42,432 nucleotides of DNA, taken from assembly GCA_023135935.1 (NCBI GenBank), contig JAGLSU010000031.1, forward strand, positions 1 to 42,432. Reading direction: 5' to 3'. Every line of letters starts with the position of its first letter. Positions within the stretch are counted from its first letter, which is position 1. Positions 1,785 to 42,432 of this stretch are shown here, in pieces. Under the pieces are notes generated by a model. The model was given only the letters and a program-made list of their open reading frames with translations, had not been told where the DNA came from and searched no databases. The position numbers were made by a program, and so were the translations under genes. The DNA is from Planctomycetota bacterium. GTDB taxonomy: Bacteria > Planctomycetota > Phycisphaerae > Sedimentisphaerales > Anaerobacaceae.

Positions 1785-1952
1785 TCAATCGAGTTCAATA
1801 AAACCGCTGAGGATATAGTAAGCTGCGTAGGCAATTATTACCGTCAGCAATATAGTTGAGGTGATATAATAGCCCTTTAACATCCAGCCAATTGATAATG
1901 CCGCTGCAAAGGTAATCAGTCTTATGATGCCCCTCTCGTATGTTATTCGCAT
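1785..1952 (-). CDS. Small two-TM membrane protein, tandem copy 1 (55 aa; not in ORF track)
   Basis: Manual translation: MRITYERGIIRLITFAAALSIGWMLKGYYITSTILLTVIIAYAAYYILSGFIELD*. RBS AAGGAGCGACTAA upstream. Homologous to copies at 2307-2501 and 2540-2707. Confidence 0.8.
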   Translation of the reverse strand: MRITYERGIIRLITFAAALSIGWMLKGYYITSTILLTVIIAYAAYYILSGFIELD

Positions 1953-1959
1953 TTAGTCG

Positions 1960-2310
1960 CTCCTTTTTCGCCCACATCGAGGCTATATAAAGCAGCGGCG
2001 CAAAACAAAAAAGAACTCCGCTGCAATCACGCTCGAAGAGGGCTCGGCAGAGCCTATCGGGGCATGAAAGCGAAGCGATGCTCTTTTAGTAACGAATACG
2101 CAAATCGCCTGCTATAAAAGCAAACGGTGCCCTCTGCGTATAAACAAAGAGCACCGAGCCTTCCACACGTTCCCGAAAATGAAAACTGGCGATTTACCTC
2201 GAAACGTCTGAAATCTCAGTGATTTCTTATTCTATTGGCGGGTTCCTTCCCGCCAGTTATATTCTATATTCTTATATCGTATATTCATAAGAAAAACGAT
2301 GAATTTTCAT
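1960..2310 (-). ncRNA. Conserved structured leader L1, upstream of small membrane ORF copy 1
   Basis: ~340 nt aligning nearly end to end with 2715-3065. Shared stems: GGCGGG/CCCGCC, GAAATC/GATTTC, GGTG..CTCT/AGAGCACC, GCAGCGG/CCGCTGC. Confidence 0.6.
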
Positions 2311-2501
2311 TTGCGTAACGATTTGTCCTTAAACCAATCGAGTTTAAAAAAACCATCGAAAATATAGTAAACTGCGTAGCCGGTTACTATTATCGCCAAT
2401 ATAACTAAGGTGGCGTAATAGTCCATTAACGCCCAGCTGGCCAAGAATACCGTTATAAAGACAACCAGTCTTATAATGCCCTTCTCATATGTTATTCGCA
2501 T
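2307..2501 (-). CDS. Small two-TM membrane protein, tandem copy 2 (64 aa)
   Basis: MRITYEKGIIRLVVFITVFLASWALMDYYATLVILAIIVTGYAVYYIFDGFFKLDWFKDKSLRK; aligns with copies 1 and 3; same RBS context. Confidence 0.8.
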   Translation of the reverse strand: MRITYEKGIIRLVVFITVFLASWALMDYYATLVILAIIVTGYAVYYIFDGFFKLDWFKDKSLRK

Positions 2502-2539
2502 TTAGTCGCTCCTTTCTCGCTCATATCAGGGTCCCTAAA

Positions 2540-2707
2540 TTAATCAAGTTCAATAAAACCGCTAAGAACATGGTAAGTTGCATAGCCGGCTATTATTACC
2601 AACAATACCGCCGGGAGGGTGCAATAATCCTTTAACATCCAGCCGGTCATGAACACCGCTATAGAGGTAACCAGTCTTATGATGCCCCTTCCGTATGTCA
2701 TTCGCAT
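2540..2707 (-). CDS. Small two-TM membrane protein, tandem copy 3 (55 aa; not in ORF track)
   Basis: Manual translation: MRMTYGRGIIRLVTSIAVFMTGWMLKDYCTLPAVLLVIIAGYATYHVLSGFIELD*; RBS AAAGGAGCAGTTAA. Confidence 0.8.
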   Translation of the reverse strand: MRMTYGRGIIRLVTSIAVFMTGWMLKDYCTLPAVLLVIIAGYATYHVLSGFIELD

Positions 2708-2714
2708 TTAACTG

Positions 2715-3065
2715 CTCCTTTCTCGCCCGTATCGGGGCCATTTAAAGGCAGCGGCGCAAAACAAAAAAGAGCACCGCCGCAATCATGCTCAATCCAGGCC
2801 CGCGAGAGCCCTTGGGAACATGAAAGCTAAGCGATGCTCTTTTTTTTGATAGCGATATACGCAGTAGCGCCCGCTATAAAAGCAGACGGTGCCCTCTGCG
2901 TATAAACAAAGAGCACCGAGCTTTCCAAACGCTTCCCAAATCTTACACTCGCGGTTTGGATCGAAACATTTGAAATCTCAGTGATTTCTTATTATCCGGC
3001 GGATTCCTCTCCGCCGGATATATTCTATATCCTTATATCGTATATTTACAAGAAAAAGCTATAAA
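2715..3065 (-). ncRNA. Conserved structured leader L2, upstream of small membrane ORF copies 3 and 2
   Basis: Duplicate of L1; stem positions keep pairing on the minus strand (details in findings). Confidence 0.6.
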
Positions 3066-3070
3066 AAAAA

Positions 3071-3151
3071 GTGCTTTATAAGCACGTAAGTAGTTGTGCC
3101 TTATAGGCACGTAAAATCTCGATGTCGTTTGGGAAAGTTGGGGTTAAAATT
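3071..3151. repeat. Composite palindromic element, copy B: GTGCTTTATAAGCAC (3071-3085), GTGCCTTATAGGCAC (3096-3110), tail CGATGTCGTTTGGGAAAGTTGGGGTTAAAATT (3120-3151)
   Basis: Matches the arrangement of the element at 964-1090. Confidence 0.7.
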
Positions 3152-3200: not shown

Positions 3201-5750
3201 TTATATCTTAAATTTGCTTTTTGTCTCTAAGAGTCTCTGGGAGGATACGGGTATGCCCAATATTTGAGAGACTCGCTGCTTGTCTTTATAGTCAACATAA
3301 TGCATATAAATGTGTTGTATGACAATTTCTTTTAGAATCCTATCGCAAACTATATTGCCTTTAAACTTCTCTGAGAGTTCTTTAAGCTTTTTTTGGTTGA
3401 CCTTTTTTTGGAATTGCAACTCAATTGCTTGATTTATAAGCATAATAGCAGGTGTATCATAATTAATCTGCATTCGCTCATATATCTCCTCCGCCTCTTT
3501 TGATCCAACTGAAAATGCTATCCTTCTCAGGATTCCATAGATTACACCGTAAGTCAATAAAAAGAAAATGTTTCCCGCACCCTTTTCCACTTCCCCAGAT
3601 TCTATGTTTAAATTTTCTTGCAGAGAACGTGTTATCATGCGGACAATTTCATCTTTTAGAATATCGGATAGCTCTATAAAATTTCTCAAACACCTTAGTC
3701 CGACATAATAGGCCTGCTCAACAACGCTAGTTAAAGTGTCTTTATCCAACGATCCATGTCTATTTCTTACTACTTGCCCAATTAATTCAATCCCTCTAAA
3801 TGCTCGATTGATTTGTGCCAAAAGATCATCGGGGTTAAGTTTCTCGATGTTTTGATTGAGTTTTTTCTCTATTTTTTCATTTTTATCTTTACGTTGATTT
3901 GACTTTTTTCTCTCTTGTTCAATCTCCCTTTGCTCAAGTACCAACTCTGGAATCTTTTCAATAAAATCTTGCATGAATCCAAGTTCACCAACTTCAAGAG
4001 TTGCTTCTTTGTTATCATGGAAAAGGTTCTTCATACATAATTGAATTTCATCTAATATCCATTTATCTTTAGTGTGGTGAGTAATAAAGATTATGATATT
4101 TGAACAATCTTCCTTGTGAAGTAGAGAAAGGAGATTTCGTATAGTTTCTTTGCTTTTTTTCTCTAAAGTCAAATTATCAGCTAAATGCTTTGCTACATAG
4201 AAATAGTATATATATCGATACTTAAATGAAATTCGTCCGTTTTTCTCACAAAATATGTTACTTGCCAACATGTTTTTTATAACCTTACCTTGATCTAGTT
4301 TGAGATATTTATCGTGATATTTTTCGAAGAAAGCGGTTAAATCCTGCTCTCCAAAGCCTTCTCCATCATTATGAAACACCGCAATGGCAAACTCGGCGAG
4401 GAAATTAAGATAAGAATCGACTTCAGTATTTTTGATTTTAGTTTTTTCAAGCGCACGGTAGATTAAGTATTGATAACAATGTCCATAAGATGTTAAATTT
4501 ACCTTTTTGGGAGAGAAGGACTCGAATACTTGTATTAGAGTGATTAAGTATATGGGCTTAGCAGGTACAATGCCTTTTTTAACAACTGAATCGATATGTA
4601 ATTTAAGGGCATCGACATTGCTGTAGAGTTCTTTTTCTCCTATTGTCTCTTCGACACCTAATGTGACCCATTTCTCTATTAGTTCTGCTCTTTTAACATT
4701 ACCAAACTGCATGATTTCATAGCGATCGAAGTCATCAAGAGAACTTATTTCTGGAGTGACAAACTTAAAAGATTCAGATGCAAGTAACACAATTGTCCCA
4801 AAAAGCTCTTTCATGTTATCAAGTAATTTATTTTGGTATTTTATGTTTAATTTCATTTCGGAATAATCATCTATGATAATTATTTTATTGAGAGCTTCTT
4901 CATAGCTTTTTTCGTCACTATCTTGATGCTGTTTAAGGTAGGCTTTTCTGGCAATCTTATTAATATCTGATTTTTTAACATCATCAGCTGTTAGCAGAAT
5001 AGGCAAATCACCCTTTTGGAGGAAATATTTAAAATATTGTTTCCCTAAAGAAGTTTTACCTGATTGGTCACTACCAAAGATTATTTTAAAACCAGGCGCA
5101 ATGACAGCTTCATCACTGCATATAGTAGATGCTATTTTGTCAATATCACTAAGTTTTTTTAAATCTGGAGCAATGTAGATATCTTCAAGAAACAATTTTG
5201 TCTTTCTTCTGTGAGAATATTCCACCTCTGTATCTTTAAGCCAATCTTGAAATTCTTTGGTTAAACAATTTTTCTTTTGCGTTGTTATTGTGATTTTCTG
5301 CTTTTTATTTTTGATCTCCTGAATACCGACTTTGATGCTAGTAACAATATTTAGCCACGCTTTATCATTGTCTGACCATGAAGAAACCGGTTCCGCCTCG
5401 TAAGGCAATGCCTGTAGCTTAGCAAATGGAGTTTGTTTCCAGTCGCAGTGTCGTAAAATCACTGGAACTACTTTGGCTTTTCCCTCTTCGTGCATTTCAA
5501 GAGCAGCTTTGGCTTCGACATCGTAGCAATAGTCAGATGCAATAAAGTCAGAACTTACTAAAAATAAAATAATCTCTGCTTTCTTTAGGTTTTTATCTAT
5601 TTGACCTTTCCATTCTTCACCTGCAGTAATCTTTCTATCATGCCAATCTTTTATATCTCCATTTCTTCTCAGCGTTGACAAGTGAGTCACAAGTTTTTCG
5701 CGATGAATCTCATCTTCATGACTGTAGCTAATGAATAAATTTAATGACAT
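3201..5750 (-). CDS. TIR domain-STAND NTPase protein (putative defence sensor/effector)
   Basis: 849 aa. N-terminal TIR (LFISYSHEDEIHREKLVTHL...ADIILFLVSSDFIAS-like segment, YDVEAKAALE). Then FQDWLKDTEVEYSHRRKTKLFLEDIYIAPDL, Walker A GSDQSGKTSL and Walker B KIIIIDDYSE. Long helical C-terminus without recognised repeats. Confidence 0.82.
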   Translation of the reverse strand: MSLNLFISYSHEDEIHREKLVTHLSTLRRNGDIKDWHDRKITAGEEWKGQIDKNLKKAEIILFLVSSDFIASDYCYDVEAKAALEMHEEGKAKVVPVILRHCDWKQTPFAKLQALPYEAEPVSSWSDNDKAWLNIVTSIKVGIQEIKNKKQKITITTQKKNCLTKEFQDWLKDTEVEYSHRRKTKLFLEDIYIAPDLKKLSDIDKIASTICSDEAVIAPGFKIIFGSDQSGKTSLGKQYFKYFLQKGDLPILLTADDVKKSDINKIARKAYLKQHQDSDEKSYEEALNKIIIIDDYSEMKLNIKYQNKLLDNMKELFGTIVLLASESFKFVTPEISSLDDFDRYEIMQFGNVKRAELIEKWVTLGVEETIGEKELYSNVDALKLHIDSVVKKGIVPAKPIYLITLIQVFESFSPKKVNLTSYGHCYQYLIYRALEKTKIKNTEVDSYLNFLAEFAIAVFHNDGEGFGEQDLTAFFEKYHDKYLKLDQGKVIKNMLASNIFCEKNGRISFKYRYIYYFYVAKHLADNLTLEKKSKETIRNLLSLLHKEDCSNIIIFITHHTKDKWILDEIQLCMKNLFHDNKEATLEVGELGFMQDFIEKIPELVLEQREIEQERKKSNQRKDKNEKIEKKLNQNIEKLNPDDLLAQINRAFRGIELIGQVVRNRHGSLDKDTLTSVVEQAYYVGLRCLRNFIELSDILKDEIVRMITRSLQENLNIESGEVEKGAGNIFFLLTYGVIYGILRRIAFSVGSKEAEEIYERMQINYDTPAIMLINQAIELQFQKKVNQKKLKELSEKFKGNIVCDRILKEIVIQHIYMHYVDYKDKQRVSQILGIPVSSQRLLETKSKFKI

Positions 5751-5813
5751 ATTTCAATCCTTGTTATTAGACGTCAAACTGTTCATATTTATTTAAACTA
5801 CAAAAATATTTTC

Positions 5814-6329
5814 TTATTGGTTTTGGGAATAATAATTTTCTCTGACCATCCCAGCCCATTTTAAGAATAATTGCCGTAAGCCATAACGATCAGTTTTGTC
5901 CAATGGTAGTATAGGCATATTATGAACAAAAACATCTGTAACACCGGGATCAAAGATACCACCAGTTATAGTTTCTTCACGAAATACAAGCAATGGTACC
6001 TTCAAACCAAAGAGTACTCCTGCTTCCAGTTGATTCCATGGAGTTGGAAATGCTTTTTTGACCGTTTGCCTTGCACTGCTTTGAGTTCCCTTTTTCCATA
6101 GCCCAGACTTTGTTTCAAATTGAGAGAACCCAAGTATTAAACCGCCTGCGCAATGTTTAGCCAAAGAGTACACTTCTTGCAACGGCAAATTTACAGGATA
6201 ATCGCTTCTGCCAAGAGCTCTTGGTTCAAAATGCTGTACTTTCAGTTCTTCTATAATAATTGAATACGATTTTTCTTGTTCTTTGTTAAGATCGCTTGGA
6301 GCAGATACAAAAACCGGAATTTTAAACAT
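5814..6329 (-). CDS. TIR-like / nucleoside 2-deoxyribosyltransferase-like protein
   Basis: 171 aa; FVSAPSDLNKEQEKSYSIIIEELK...PRALGRSDYPVNLPLQEVYSLAKHCAGGLILGFSQF...TPWNQLEAGVLFGLKVPLLVFREETITGGIFDPG. Fold assignment is from pattern only. Confidence 0.5.
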   Translation of the reverse strand: MFKIPVFVSAPSDLNKEQEKSYSIIIEELKVQHFEPRALGRSDYPVNLPLQEVYSLAKHCAGGLILGFSQFETKSGLWKKGTQSSARQTVKKAFPTPWNQLEAGVLFGLKVPLLVFREETITGGIFDPGVTDVFVHNMPILPLDKTDRYGLRQLFLKWAGMVRENYYSQNQ

Positions 6330-6356
6330 GATTATCCTCTAAACAAGTCAAAATAT

Positions 6357-6827
6357 CTAATTCTTATTTTTTTCTGTCCCATTCTCATCTTCATTTTTTT
6401 GAGTGTGCGTACTGATCCAAAGAGAATTTTCCTTTGAAATCAAAGCCTCTACTCTTTCGACAAACAGAGCTTCTTTGTCACTACTGTCGCTGTAATCATT
6501 TAATTCCGCCTCATAAAAATACTTCTCCTTTTTCAATGATTCCGCAATTGTTCGGAAAGTTAACCAATTCTCTTGGTACTTAAATGCCTTAAGGGCCGCC
6601 GTTATTATTGCGAGAATTGCTGCAATTGTAGCAGTTAGCCACTTTATCTCTTCTGGTAGAAATGCAACAAGGACTACGACAATAGGTGAAATAATCAAGG
6701 CCCCCCACTGAAAGAACTTATAAAACCTCTTATTTTTTATAGATGTTTTATCATACCAGTCTATCTCTTTTTCATATCTCTCTTTGAGATATTTCTCAAA
6801 TAATTCCTGTTCCATACTTTGCTCCAT
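6357..6827 (-). CDS. DUF4231 / SLATT-type two-TM protein
   Basis: 156 aa; two adjacent TM helices (WGALIISPIVVVLVAFL; WLTATIAAILAIITAALKAF) followed by YQENWLTFRTIAESLKKEKYFYEAELNDY, characteristic of DUF4231/SLATT. Confidence 0.8.
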   Translation of the reverse strand: MEQSMEQELFEKYLKERYEKEIDWYDKTSIKNKRFYKFFQWGALIISPIVVVLVAFLPEEIKWLTATIAAILAIITAALKAFKYQENWLTFRTIAESLKKEKYFYEAELNDYSDSSDKEALFVERVEALISKENSLWISTHTQKNEDENGTEKNKN

Positions 6828-6858
6828 TATTAACTATATGTTTTCTGCTTATTGAATG

Positions 6859-7446
6859 TTATGTACCATACACTTTGACTTTATTTGCAATTGGCTCAGA
6901 GCGTTTATTGAATGCATCATCAATATATTTCTCTGGGTTAGCACAGAAATCACCCCATTTCACTAGGACACAATACCTCTCGTCTTCCGTATGACAGCAT
7001 TTGTCATTGGGAATATAGTAGTTATAACTAAATTCAGAGACTACAGTACTGCCATTTATCGCCACGTGGTTGTGGCTACTGCCACATTGGGGACAGTTAA
7101 AGCTTTCCTTGTAAATCTGCGACTCAACAGAGGGCAGAACTAGCCCGAGGATTCCGCTTCTGGTATTACCCTCCCCATTGTACAGGGATGCCTGCAATTC
7201 TCTCTTTATGAACTTTCGCTCCTCATGACCCAAGTTCTCTGCACTATAAACTCCGATGATGTGTATTGTGACCGTTGAATCAGATAGGTAATCTTCGCGT
7301 ATCTTCTGCAAAATATAGTCTTCGTCCTCAGAATCGATCGTGTTATTGAGGGATTTGTCGATCATATCAACATCAAGCCCAGACTGAATATAGTTCTTGT
7401 ATGCAATGTCTTCTGTTTTGAAGGAGATAAAACACTTGTGTCCCAC
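6859..7446 (-). CDS. ThsB/DUF1863-like TIR protein
   Basis: 195 aa; KCFISFKTEDIAYKNYIQ...DMIDKSLNNTIDSEDEDYILQKIREDYLSDSTVTIHIIGVYSAENLGHEERKFIKRELQASL resembles the Thoeris ThsB TIR-like family. Contains a CPQCGSSH Cys/His motif. Confidence 0.65.
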   Translation of the reverse strand: MGHKCFISFKTEDIAYKNYIQSGLDVDMIDKSLNNTIDSEDEDYILQKIREDYLSDSTVTIHIIGVYSAENLGHEERKFIKRELQASLYNGEGNTRSGILGLVLPSVESQIYKESFNCPQCGSSHNHVAINGSTVVSEFSYNYYIPNDKCCHTEDERYCVLVKWGDFCANPEKYIDDAFNKRSEPIANKVKVYGT

Positions 7447-7566
7447 GATTCTACTCTTTCCATAAATATTAACAATTCATTTTTAACTCGATGCAACTTA
7501 TCTATGTACACCAAGGTATTTGGTGATATTCAACTCATTACCGAATTTTAAATCATGAGAAATACT

Positions 7567-7785
7567 TTAGCGAGTTGAGCCACCAATACACCAATGGCAA
7601 TTGTCATAGCCATCATTGTGAGCCTCAGCAAGAGTATGATAAGGCTTTGCGTGTCCAGCAGCTATTATTTCATCGATTTGGCACTGGGCCGTTTCATTGT
7701 CTAAATCATGAACCTCTTTTTTGCTTGGACTAATGTTTACGCAATATCTTGCTCCGTAAAGCGGGGGTCCTTGTCGTCTTGCCAT
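7567..7785 (-). CDS. Small conserved hypothetical protein (MARRQGPPLYGARYCVNISPSKKEVHDLDNE...AHNDGYDNCHWCIGGSTR)
   Basis: 72 aa from the ATG at 7785, which has RBS AAAAGGAGTTCGGAA; the 7824 start in the track lacks this. C-terminal CHWC motif. Confidence 0.65.
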   Translation of the reverse strand: MARRQGPPLYGARYCVNISPSKKEVHDLDNETAQCQIDEIIAAGHAKPYHTLAEAHNDGYDNCHWCIGGSTR

Positions 7786-7879
7786 TTCCGAACTCCTTTT
7801 TTCACAATAACTGTTCATGTTCAATTATCCTAGGAAGCCATTTAGACGTGGAAATTCGAAGGGTTATCCTTCTTTTCCC

Positions 7880-7897
7880 TCCCCGCCTTCGCGGGGA
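7880..7897. repeat. Palindrome TCCCCGC-CTTC-GCGGGGA just past the stop of the 7903-9438 gene
   Basis: Perfect 7-bp stem; no adjacent T-run on the minus strand, so REP-like or 3' stability hairpin rather than clear terminator. Confidence 0.5.
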
Positions 7898-7902
7898 CAA
7901 GC

Positions 7903-9438
7903 CTATGGCGAATCTTTTTTTACTTTGCGTTCTCTGTAGTCACACCTACTTTGCGACGATTTAGGGATCTCCACAATTCTACTTACCCTATTCATTATAT
8001 TTTGGCTGCGTTCTATCAGAGGCGTTTTTTTATCATTCTCAACCATCATTTCCAAGCTATTAATAAGCGATGCAGCATTAAAAGAGGTAAGCGGCAGGAC
8101 AGATGCTGTTCTTCCATTGTGCATGATATCAGTTGAAGATAGACAAGTATCAATGCCTGATAATAGAGGTGTGTAAATCACTGTGATATTAAAAGCCTTG
8201 AGTTTCGGATCGTCTATTCTCGACAGATATTTGGCAAGTCTTGATGTGCAGCACACCGCTATTATGTGTGTCAGTTGATGGTTATGTTTTATCAGAAATT
8301 CTTCTATAGCTTCATCTATGCCGTGGTGCGATCCAATTACTTTAATCTCTGCGATATTTTCATAATTAATCAGTTTTCCAACCGAACACAAAGGTTTACA
8401 CCGATCGCATTGATCCCCGGAAATTGGTATATCTATAGCTAGTTTTTCATTATCTCGCCGTATCTGACAACGTGGCCCCCGAGAGCAATAAGGTAAGAGG
8501 GCAAGTGTTGTCTTTGGATTAAAAGTATTATTATCCCCAATTCTAAATACCGACAAATTATCTACTAATTTATACTGGCGATTTCTTGAAGCCAAGATAT
8601 CTTTTGTTCGCTCTACAGGAGCATTAAGTTGCTCTTGTCCTATTTTGGCAAAGTATGATGTAATTCCTAGAAATAGTAGGGCGCATGTTACTGTGGCCCA
8701 AGCATACATTATTGTAAAAAGAAGCTCGTCTTCTGACGCTATCGTCATTCTATAATTTTCCGGTATTGGATGGTTGACACCTCCTAATGTAAATTCATAG
8801 TCTCCAAGAGAGGAGATTAACAGAAAGCAGAAAGAAAAGCTTATTACATAGATTGCTGACCGTATTGGTTGAATGCTATATGAGATATAAAGAGCCAGCA
8901 GGCAGAACATAGCAAATAATGAGAAGAAGGGGCTCCTTAAGCCACCGCTGACAACACAGAGATATGTTAGAGCGAGCAATTCTATTAAAAGTGGAATGGT
9001 CGGATATTCGCTTCCCTTATATTTCAAATCAATGTGATTTTCGATCCAATGGGGAATTATAAAGGCCCAGCCACTTCTTTTACCCTTATGTTTTGAGGTG
9101 GGATTAATATTTAAATGCTTAAATAACCAAAGAACTTCAAAGATGAGGACTCCCCATAGCAGATATAATACAAAGTTCGCACTGGTTTTACGCACCGACA
9201 GGAGCACAAATGTGATTGTTGCTATTGCAGCTAGGCGATGAAGAAAAATTCTAACGCATAAACTGTTTCGCTTCCATTTATCTATTGGTTGACGGATATC
9301 ATGACGCAGGGGCAGTCTATTTGCCTTTTTATATTGAAAATAGGCAATAATGTTACCGGTAATACCGACAAGTGTGGCTGCCACCAGAGTATAAATTCCA
9401 ATCCACTGATCCGAACTCAATTTTGCTAATATTATCAT
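7903..9438 (-). CDS. Multi-TM membrane protein with C-terminal DUF116-like Cys-rich domain
   Basis: 511 aa; several N-terminal TM helices. Then LALLPYCSRGPRC...GDQCDRCKPLCSVGKL...HIIAVCCTSRLAKYL...DTCLSSTDI, a Cys layout like DUF116. Confidence 0.5.
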   Translation of the reverse strand: MIILAKLSSDQWIGIYTLVAATLVGITGNIIAYFQYKKANRLPLRHDIRQPIDKWKRNSLCVRIFLHRLAAIATITFVLLSVRKTSANFVLYLLWGVLIFEVLWLFKHLNINPTSKHKGKRSGWAFIIPHWIENHIDLKYKGSEYPTIPLLIELLALTYLCVVSGGLRSPFFSLFAMFCLLALYISYSIQPIRSAIYVISFSFCFLLISSLGDYEFTLGGVNHPIPENYRMTIASEDELLFTIMYAWATVTCALLFLGITSYFAKIGQEQLNAPVERTKDILASRNRQYKLVDNLSVFRIGDNNTFNPKTTLALLPYCSRGPRCQIRRDNEKLAIDIPISGDQCDRCKPLCSVGKLINYENIAEIKVIGSHHGIDEAIEEFLIKHNHQLTHIIAVCCTSRLAKYLSRIDDPKLKAFNITVIYTPLLSGIDTCLSSTDIMHNGRTASVLPLTSFNAASLINSLEMMVENDKKTPLIERSQNIMNRVSRIVEIPKSSQSRCDYRERKVKKDSP

Positions 9439-9900
9439 CGCTTATCCTTTCCGACGAAATCCACAATTTATCTCTTTTCCCACCTCCAGTGAATTTTTCA
9501 ATCATCAATTAAAGTGCCACCATCAGCGCATTACTTATCTGTCTTGCCATTTCTAAACTCCTATTTCAAAATAACCGTTAATATTCAATTATCTCTGGAG
9601 GCCAGAAAGACGTAGAAAGCAGTATGTTGCGTGAAGCATTTCGTTCTCGATGCCAGAATCCAGCAACAGCCCACTTCCCGCTACCTCACCGGCTATTTTT
9701 AACTACATATATACGCCCTATAATATATGTAAAATCCGCATAAAACAAGCCTATTCTGACCGTTTTCAAACTAATTAAGTGTGTTCGCAGGGTGTGCTGG
9801 CGCAGACCATCCACCTTGTCATTTAGCCGTCCGCCAGCCAAGGGATGTTGATTGAAAAAATGTCCGTTTTTCGCTCTAAAGCCCCTTTTGTAAATCTTAC

Positions 9901-9915
9901 GTGACTATAAGTCAC
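9901..9915. repeat. Short palindrome GTGACTATAAGTCAC (same family as 964, 1696, 3071)
   Basis: Perfect 5-bp arms around TATAA-like centre. Confidence 0.6.
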
Positions 9916-11004: not shown

Positions 11005-11012
11005 ATATTTAC

Positions 11013-11027
11013 GTACCTATAAGGTAC
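11013..11027. repeat. Short palindrome GTACCTATAAGGTAC downstream of FN3 copy 1
   Basis: Perfect 5-bp arms; same loop type as the other palindromes. Confidence 0.6.
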
Positions 11028-11747: not shown

Positions 11748-11756
11748 TTATCTTAT

Positions 11757-11771
11757 GTGCCTCTAAGGCAC
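11757..11771. repeat. Short palindrome GTGCCTCTAAGGCAC downstream of FN3 copy 2
   Basis: Perfect 5-bp arms, immediately after the stop codon. Confidence 0.6.
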
Positions 11772-42227: not shown

Positions 42228-42264
42228 TCCAAACTTTTGTTATAATGGTGCGTAGACAATTAAA

Positions 42265-42432
42265 GAGTGGGTCGGACGGTCGCCGGTTCTATGAACTGGA
42301 GGAAAGTCCGAGCAGGAATGGGCAACGGTGGTGGCTAACGGCCACCGAGGGCAACCTCAGGGAAAGTGCCACAGAAAATACACAGCCAATGGTCTCGATT
42401 CGTCGGGACACAGGCAATGGTGAAATGGTGCG
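42265..42432 (+). ncRNA. rnpB: RNase P RNA (class A), 5' part, truncated by window end
   Basis: GAACTGGAGGAAAGTCCGAGC and CAGGGAAAGTGCCACAGAAA are conserved RNase P elements; consensus -10 TATAAT at 42241-42246. 5' end approximate. Confidence 0.93.

Follow-up and report, generated by a model that had tools for sequence, protein, structure and literature searches.

Two repeats in the window, by which we mean the whole 42,432-nt stretch of planctomycete DNA analysed here, are probably two copies, L1 and L2, of a new cis-acting leader RNA family whose members, judging from sequence, would attenuate transcription of the gene behind them. That the leader family is real and is a structured RNA is nearly certain. 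An earlier note on this DNA had pointed to two segments (1960-2310 and 2715-3065) duplicated nearly end to end, and they were found at that place as direct repeats in register, matching over 126 nt (85%), 99 nt (81%) and 60 nt (87%). The order of transcription proposed for the minus strand, L2-ORF3-ORF2 and then L1-ORF1, is likewise correct, with ORF3 at 2540-2707, ORF2 at 2307-2501 and ORF1 at 1785-1952. When 100 dinucleotide shuffles were folded for comparison, both leader copies did better than every one of them (z = -5.2 and -8.1), and a duplication or fold arising by chance is ruled out because there are about 105 homologues. The stem changes described between the copies are all present in the sequence: TGGCGGG/CCCGCCA becomes CGGCGGA/TCCGCCG, GCAGCGG/CCGCTGC becomes GCGGCGG/CCGCTGC, and GGCTC/GAGCC becomes GGCTC/GGGCC. 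The GCAGCGG/CCGCTGC stem is the antiterminator pairing of strands s3 and s4 (s3:s4). The stem GAAATC-ACTGA-GATTTC, which the same note had listed as unchanged, did not hold up as a local hairpin that is constant across the family and was abandoned as such, with CACUGA:UCGGUG paired at 97%. What stays constant is that CACUGAG pairs at long range with CUCGGUG, in 97% of cells.

Both window copies are of the extended form, with an additional strand s2', and all of their features lie on the minus strand. In L2, a promoter-like site (3022-3051), composed of UUGUAA at 3046-3051 and UAUAGAAU at 3022-3029, precedes a 5' hairpin P0 (CCGGCGGA/UCCGCCGG, 2996-3017) that is variable or absent in other family members. 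The core RNA (2764-2989) matches the covariance model with 176 bits (E = 2.8e-48). Within it, strand s0, CACUGAG (2977-2983), closes the core with strand s1 to give helix P1. The pseudoknot PK2 pairs UCGAUCC (2958-2964) with GGAUUGA (2789-2795), the kissing loop PK1 pairs CCGCGAG (2948-2954) with CUCGCGG (2800-2806), and PK3 pairs UUUGGGAA (2933-2940) with UUCCCAAG (2811-2818). Strand s1 (CUCGGUGCUCU, 2910-2920) can take s0 or s2 (AGAGGGCACCG, 2887-2897) as its partner, and the extra copy s2' (AAAGAGCAUCGC, 2831-2842) is the terminator partner of s3. Strand s3 (GCGGCGGUGCUC) and the U-run that follows it (2763-2780) make up the 3' arm of an intrinsic-terminator-like stem, and s4 (GCGCCGCUGC, 2748-2757), the antiterminator partner of s3, comes right after the U-run. 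The first gene past L2 is ORF3, which encodes 55 aa with two hydrophobic segments, and its 64-aa paralogue ORF2 lies 38 nt downstream of it without an RNA of its own.

L1 is the less perfect copy: its PK1 contains a C x C mismatch, its PK3 is short and its s3 is imperfect. Its promoter-like site (2261-2290) consists of the -10-like UAUAGAAU (2261-2268) and a weak -35-like element (2284-2290), followed by the P0 hairpin UGGCGGG/CCCGCCA (2236-2255) and by a core RNA (2008-2227) that matches the covariance model with 167 bits (E = 1.2e-45). The relay strands are s0 (2215-2221), s1 (2148-2158), s2 (2125-2135), s2' (2075-2087), s3 with its U-run (GCAGCGGAGUUC, 2007-2024) and the antiterminator partner s4 (GCGCCGCUGC, 1992-2001). 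PK1 joins 2186-2192 to 2044-2050 with its one mismatch, PK2 joins 2197-2202 to 2033-2038, and PK3, which is partial, joins 2170-2176 to 2057-2062. ORF1, also of 55 aa and with two hydrophobic segments, lies past L1.

Palindromic repeats around GTGCTTTATAAGCACGTAA flank the unit that extends from L2 to ORF1 and recur between genes (962-1040, 1694-1743 and 3069-3120), with weaker versions at 9897-9915, 11009-11027 and 11753-11771. In the whole assembly these repeats are confined to the window's contig, with 8 matches at up to 2 mismatches and none for a reversed control. Directly upstream of L2 and on the same strand lies a defence-like cluster (3201-9438, minus strand) that comprises a TIR-STAND NTPase (849 aa), a SLATT/DUF4231 protein with two TM segments, two proteins that remain unassigned and a membrane protein that matches DUF116 weakly. 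The last part of the window (42264-42432, plus strand) is the 5' portion of a bacterial class A RNase P RNA, which is truncated where the window stops.

The 56-pair structure proposed for the family was assessed on 105 members representing 104 distinct sequences, in which 94.7% of 5639 cells are standard-paired, compared with 36.8-47.5% when partners were slid by 1-3 columns. Two-sided compensatory changes numbered 1062, against 133-215 with slid partners, and 0 of 500 shuffles did as well. The earlier note had named covariation among homologues as a check, and we ran it as an R-scape-like test, in which Fitch-counted substitutions were redistributed on the branches of a FastTree tree and an APC-corrected G statistic was compared with 600 null alignments. 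The signal stood above this phylogenetic null, with 12 column pairs at E<0.05 and 19 at E<1 among the 12880 tested, and all 19 fall inside proposed helices (PK1, PK2, PK3, H, P7 and s1:s2). PK2 is 95.8% paired, with two-sided change in 7 of 7 pairs and five pairs at E below 1/600; PK1 is 98% paired, with three pairs at E below 1/600; and PK3 is 84% paired, with two-sided change in 7 of 7 pairs. The test is non-circular for the pseudoknots, P1 and s1:s2 because these were absent from the alignment model; P2, P7, H and s2:s3 differ in that the alignment is biased towards the structure there. G-U cells (785) exceed A-C cells (80) by about 10:1, and the minus strand is therefore the functional RNA strand. 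Covariation and the G-U/A-C bias in the homologues thus agree with the folded minus-strand RNA first proposed from the two copies. In the model architecture, a four-way junction is built from P2, PK2, P7 and PK3, with PK1 as a kissing loop above it, giving three pseudoknots in all; P1 (CACUGAG:CUCGGUG) extends P2, and s2:s3 extends P7.

Beyond this core, the conserved pairings form a relay of five strands. Across the family, s0:s1 is 97.2% paired (104 distinct sequences), s1:s2 97.4% and s2:s3 97.7%, with s3 followed by the U-run and s4, complementary to s3, placed right past it. The s3:s4 duplex averages -13.1 kcal/mol; the segment that follows gives -6.8 and one further upstream -7.3. When partners were permuted among members, none of 20000 permutations was as strong as the own-partner pairing of s3:s4 (z = -6.3), so each s4 has changed in step with the s3 of its own copy; the own-partner pairing of s2:s3 also beats 20000 permutations (z = -12.0). 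By its predicted pairings, the relay is laid out as a terminator/antiterminator switch. Two hallmarks of riboswitches are found here, namely a structured, conserved domain within a gene's 5' leader and an expression platform with mutually exclusive pairings, all of them conserved (s0:s1, s1:s2, s2:s3 and s3:s4). A leader-peptide attenuator was dropped as an explanation. Within the 5' domain, no alignment column has AUG in over 25% of the sequences, as would have marked a conserved short leader ORF, and the lack of a conserved start codon there makes a leader peptide unlikely.

The most probable course of events would start at the promoter just upstream, which would initiate the leader RNA. The RNA would then form a compact core, the four-way junction of P2, PK2, P7 and PK3, with the PK1 kissing loop joining the 5' and 3' hairpins and two legs extending from it. 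In the OFF state, s0:s1 would close the core and s2:s3 would form the intrinsic-terminator-like stem with its U-run; in the ON state, s1:s2 would form together with the s3:s4 antiterminator past the U-run, and the terminator would be removed. In the extended copies of the window, the choice would lie between s2':s3 and s3:s4, and s1:s2 could coexist with the terminator. The switching of the pairings, the ON/OFF polarity and the nature of the trigger are what we infer. When pseudoknot terms are left out, the ON fold exceeds the OFF fold in stability by about 18 kcal/mol on average, so the OFF state would presumably depend on a bound factor or on the pseudoknotted core. Because the pseudoknots by themselves leave s1:s2 possible, they do not settle how core folding is coupled to the legs.

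The relatives of the window copies were gathered in steps. A DNA search found leader copies in 17 of 99 related genomes and also a third copy in the window's own genome, again before a mini-ORF (contig C20, locus L002, RNA and mini-ORF together at 1269-1752). This third copy is strongly diverged, with a different loop insert, and the final residues are missing from its mini-ORF. When named genomes were scanned for the pattern, matches came from Planctomycetota only (Phycisphaerae, Sedimentisphaerales), plus one record labelled 'uncultured bacterium'. A first covariance model, built from the relatives found by DNA search and pattern scan, was applied to 161 genomes of the window's order and detected the RNA in 76 of them, often in several copies and in up to 12 per genome. 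A second model, built from 105 members, was applied to genomes of the class and the phylum, so that the model searches covered one phylum, Planctomycetota. Of 397 Phycisphaerae genomes, the class of the window, 62 proved to carry the RNA, nearly all from the same order as the window. In a phylum sample of 392 genomes, 9 had it: 4 belong to that order, and the other 5 are weaker matches in other families. Two of these weaker matches (L166 and L168) retain the kissing loop and the flanking pairings on reading; both are excluded from the covariation statistics. Hence, the leader family is widespread in the window's order and sparse elsewhere in Planctomycetota. The Rfam check named by the earlier note was made with cmscan and assigned no known family: in Rfam 15, the window copies and 16 divergent loci had no match at the gathering threshold, and loose thresholds gave chance matches only.

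The position of the RNA relative to genes is consistent. A promoter-like pair occurs within 110 nt upstream of 67 of 105 copies; among 283 control windows, 18 had one. Of 75 downstream genes, 66 are co-directional with the RNA and 9 opposite, at a median gap of 84.5 nt, and upstream genes are divided 44 to 38 in orientation. At many loci the gap between RNA and gene is 25-60 nt (56 and 55 nt in the window), which leaves little room for a second promoter; 15 of 90 copies are without a clear downstream gene. The cis-regulatory role suggested by the earlier note is thereby supported by the leader structure, the conserved competing pairings and the co-directional downstream genes. Among the client genes, those for PEP-CTERM surface proteins and for DNA methyltransferases are over-represented. 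PEP-CTERM proteins account for 19 of 80 downstream proteins, set against a background of 365 matches in 15 genomes (about 51.5 Mb), which we estimate at about 0.8% of genes if each gene takes up 1.1 kb. DNA methyltransferases account for 8 of the 80 (three EcoRI-type, two N6_N4, two N6_Mtase/HSDR_N and one D12), and methyltransferase genes of unrelated types follow the RNA at loci L101, L107, L131, L085, L109, L119, L140 and L145. Pairs of RNAs in tandem on the same strand, within about 0.2-0.6 kb, were seen at L075, L093 and L094 as well as on contigs G033:C7, G065:C16 and G096:C11; at L075, L093 and L094, the tandem RNAs stand before one PEP-CTERM gene. At two loci (L084 and L108), the RNA lies upstream of genes of the DUF932 family, which we take to be associated with phages and plasmids; this position suggests travel with mobile elements.

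The mini-proteins of the window belong to a set of 55-64 aa proteins with two hydrophobic segments each, for which no Pfam relatives and no convincing NCBIfam relatives were found. They occur in 4 of the 161 genomes: four in the window's genome (G000), five in G015, two in G004 and one truncated at a contig end in G047. Each complete mini-ORF sits behind a leader RNA, ORF2 being the second in a tandem, and all RNA copies found in G000, G015 and G004, including all three of the window's genome, have a mini-ORF. This association indicates that RNA and mini-gene multiplied together in these three genomes. The mini-protein is thus a local, lineage-specific client of the leader, and one that may possibly be a toxin, its size and hydrophobicity fitting those of type I toxins. 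The earlier suggestion of a type I toxin-antitoxin-like unit, with the RNA as antitoxin to a hydrophobic mini-toxin, draws on the same features, namely client ORFs of 55-64 aa with two hydrophobic segments and the joint expansion of RNA and ORF in three genomes. However, a type I antitoxin is antisense to its toxin mRNA, and the RNA here is a sense leader upstream of the ORF on the same strand, whose relatives mostly precede large, unrelated genes. No separate antisense element came to light in the course of the analysis. We consider such a unit very improbable.

Three further explanations have to be weighed against an attenuating leader. The RNA could be an independent trans-acting sRNA with its own promoter and terminator, next to a gene that is incidental or separately promoted, as its promoter-like site, its terminator-like end, its several copies per genome and the few copies with no gene behind them would allow. 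Yet several features argue against a free sRNA, which we regard as unlikely: the co-directional bias of 66:9 among downstream genes, whose median distance is 84.5 nt, while upstream genes show 44:38; the strong client enrichment; the conserved s3:s4 antiterminator beyond the terminator; and the tandem copies ahead of one gene. An element working as DNA, either a recombination site folded in the manner of attC or a mobile repeat, might account for dispersed, cassette-like copies ahead of accessory genes. It is hardly credible given the G-U:A-C ratio, which marks one strand as RNA, the promoter-like sites upstream, the terminator U-runs and the lack of any match in phage and plasmid records. A pattern scan of viral contigs had hinted at a phage element; the hint came from two contigs whose RNA is identical to that of a bacterial contig, and it was set aside.

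The third explanation keeps the same leader and gives the switch to a protein or to a processive antitermination factor of the EAR/put or LoaP-like kind. EAR and put are cis RNAs that let polymerase pass terminators, and EAR acts in exopolysaccharide operons, which compares well with clients that are surface proteins and accessory genes and that share no obvious metabolite. Single-gene clients, the terminator that the RNA itself contains, a pseudoknotted core resembling an aptamer and tandem copies speak against it, all of them still compatible with a protein, and we hold this possibility to be a serious but less probable one. As for attenuation by the leader itself, the family is riboswitch-like in layout, and we see about an even chance that a small molecule, the likeliest trigger when set against a protein or another RNA, works the switch. 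Tentatively, and with slightly less confidence than an even chance would warrant, the family may be an orphan riboswitch class limited to Planctomycetota that has a fold of its own, a five-strand relay and one cellular signal. If so, this orphan riboswitch would coordinate PEP-CTERM surface proteins, DNA methylation and tiny membrane proteins. RNA regulators described in planctomycetes are few, and the family is a strong orphan-riboswitch candidate whose unusual client set may point to a new signal.

Among known systems, EAR and put RNAs share with the leader family their cis action and surface-related clients; here, terminator and antiterminator lie inside one short leader, and the sequences were compared by cmscan alone. 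Transcription-terminating riboswitches, such as the cobalamin and purine classes with their kissing loops, resemble it in their position in the 5' leader, their pseudoknotted or kissing-loop core, the closing helix that shares a strand with the terminator/antiterminator, and the occurrence of tandem copies. The leader family differs from them in sequence and topology and is without an Rfam match; the likeness is one of layout. A literature search of papers accessible without subscription found no earlier description of an RNA motif linked to PEP-CTERM or exosortase or of a riboswitch from Planctomycetota, and the family is apparently undescribed. Orphan candidate structured RNAs have been reported, among them Rhodopirellula-1, which is listed for Proteobacteria and Planctomycetes (Weinberg et al., 2010; PMC2864571). 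Its table row has a 'y' in one column and '?' in the others and carries no Rfam accession (Weinberg et al., 2010); we read it as probably cis-regulatory. The comparison with Rhodopirellula-1 covers this table entry, and the two may or may not be identical; the leader family was found in Planctomycetota, the sole phylum searched with the models. In Proteobacteria, PEP-CTERM genes are controlled by PrsK/PrsR and sigma-54; outside this phylum, they are without that DNA element, and further regulators are yet to be found (Haft et al., 2006; PMC1569441). A multi-copy leader with so strong a signature offers a concrete, testable answer, within part of a single phylum, to how PEP-CTERM genes are controlled. 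In both systems, the long region ahead of a single PEP-CTERM gene contains a conserved element, but the PrsK/PrsR-sigma-54 element is a DNA site, whereas the planctomycete leader is an RNA.
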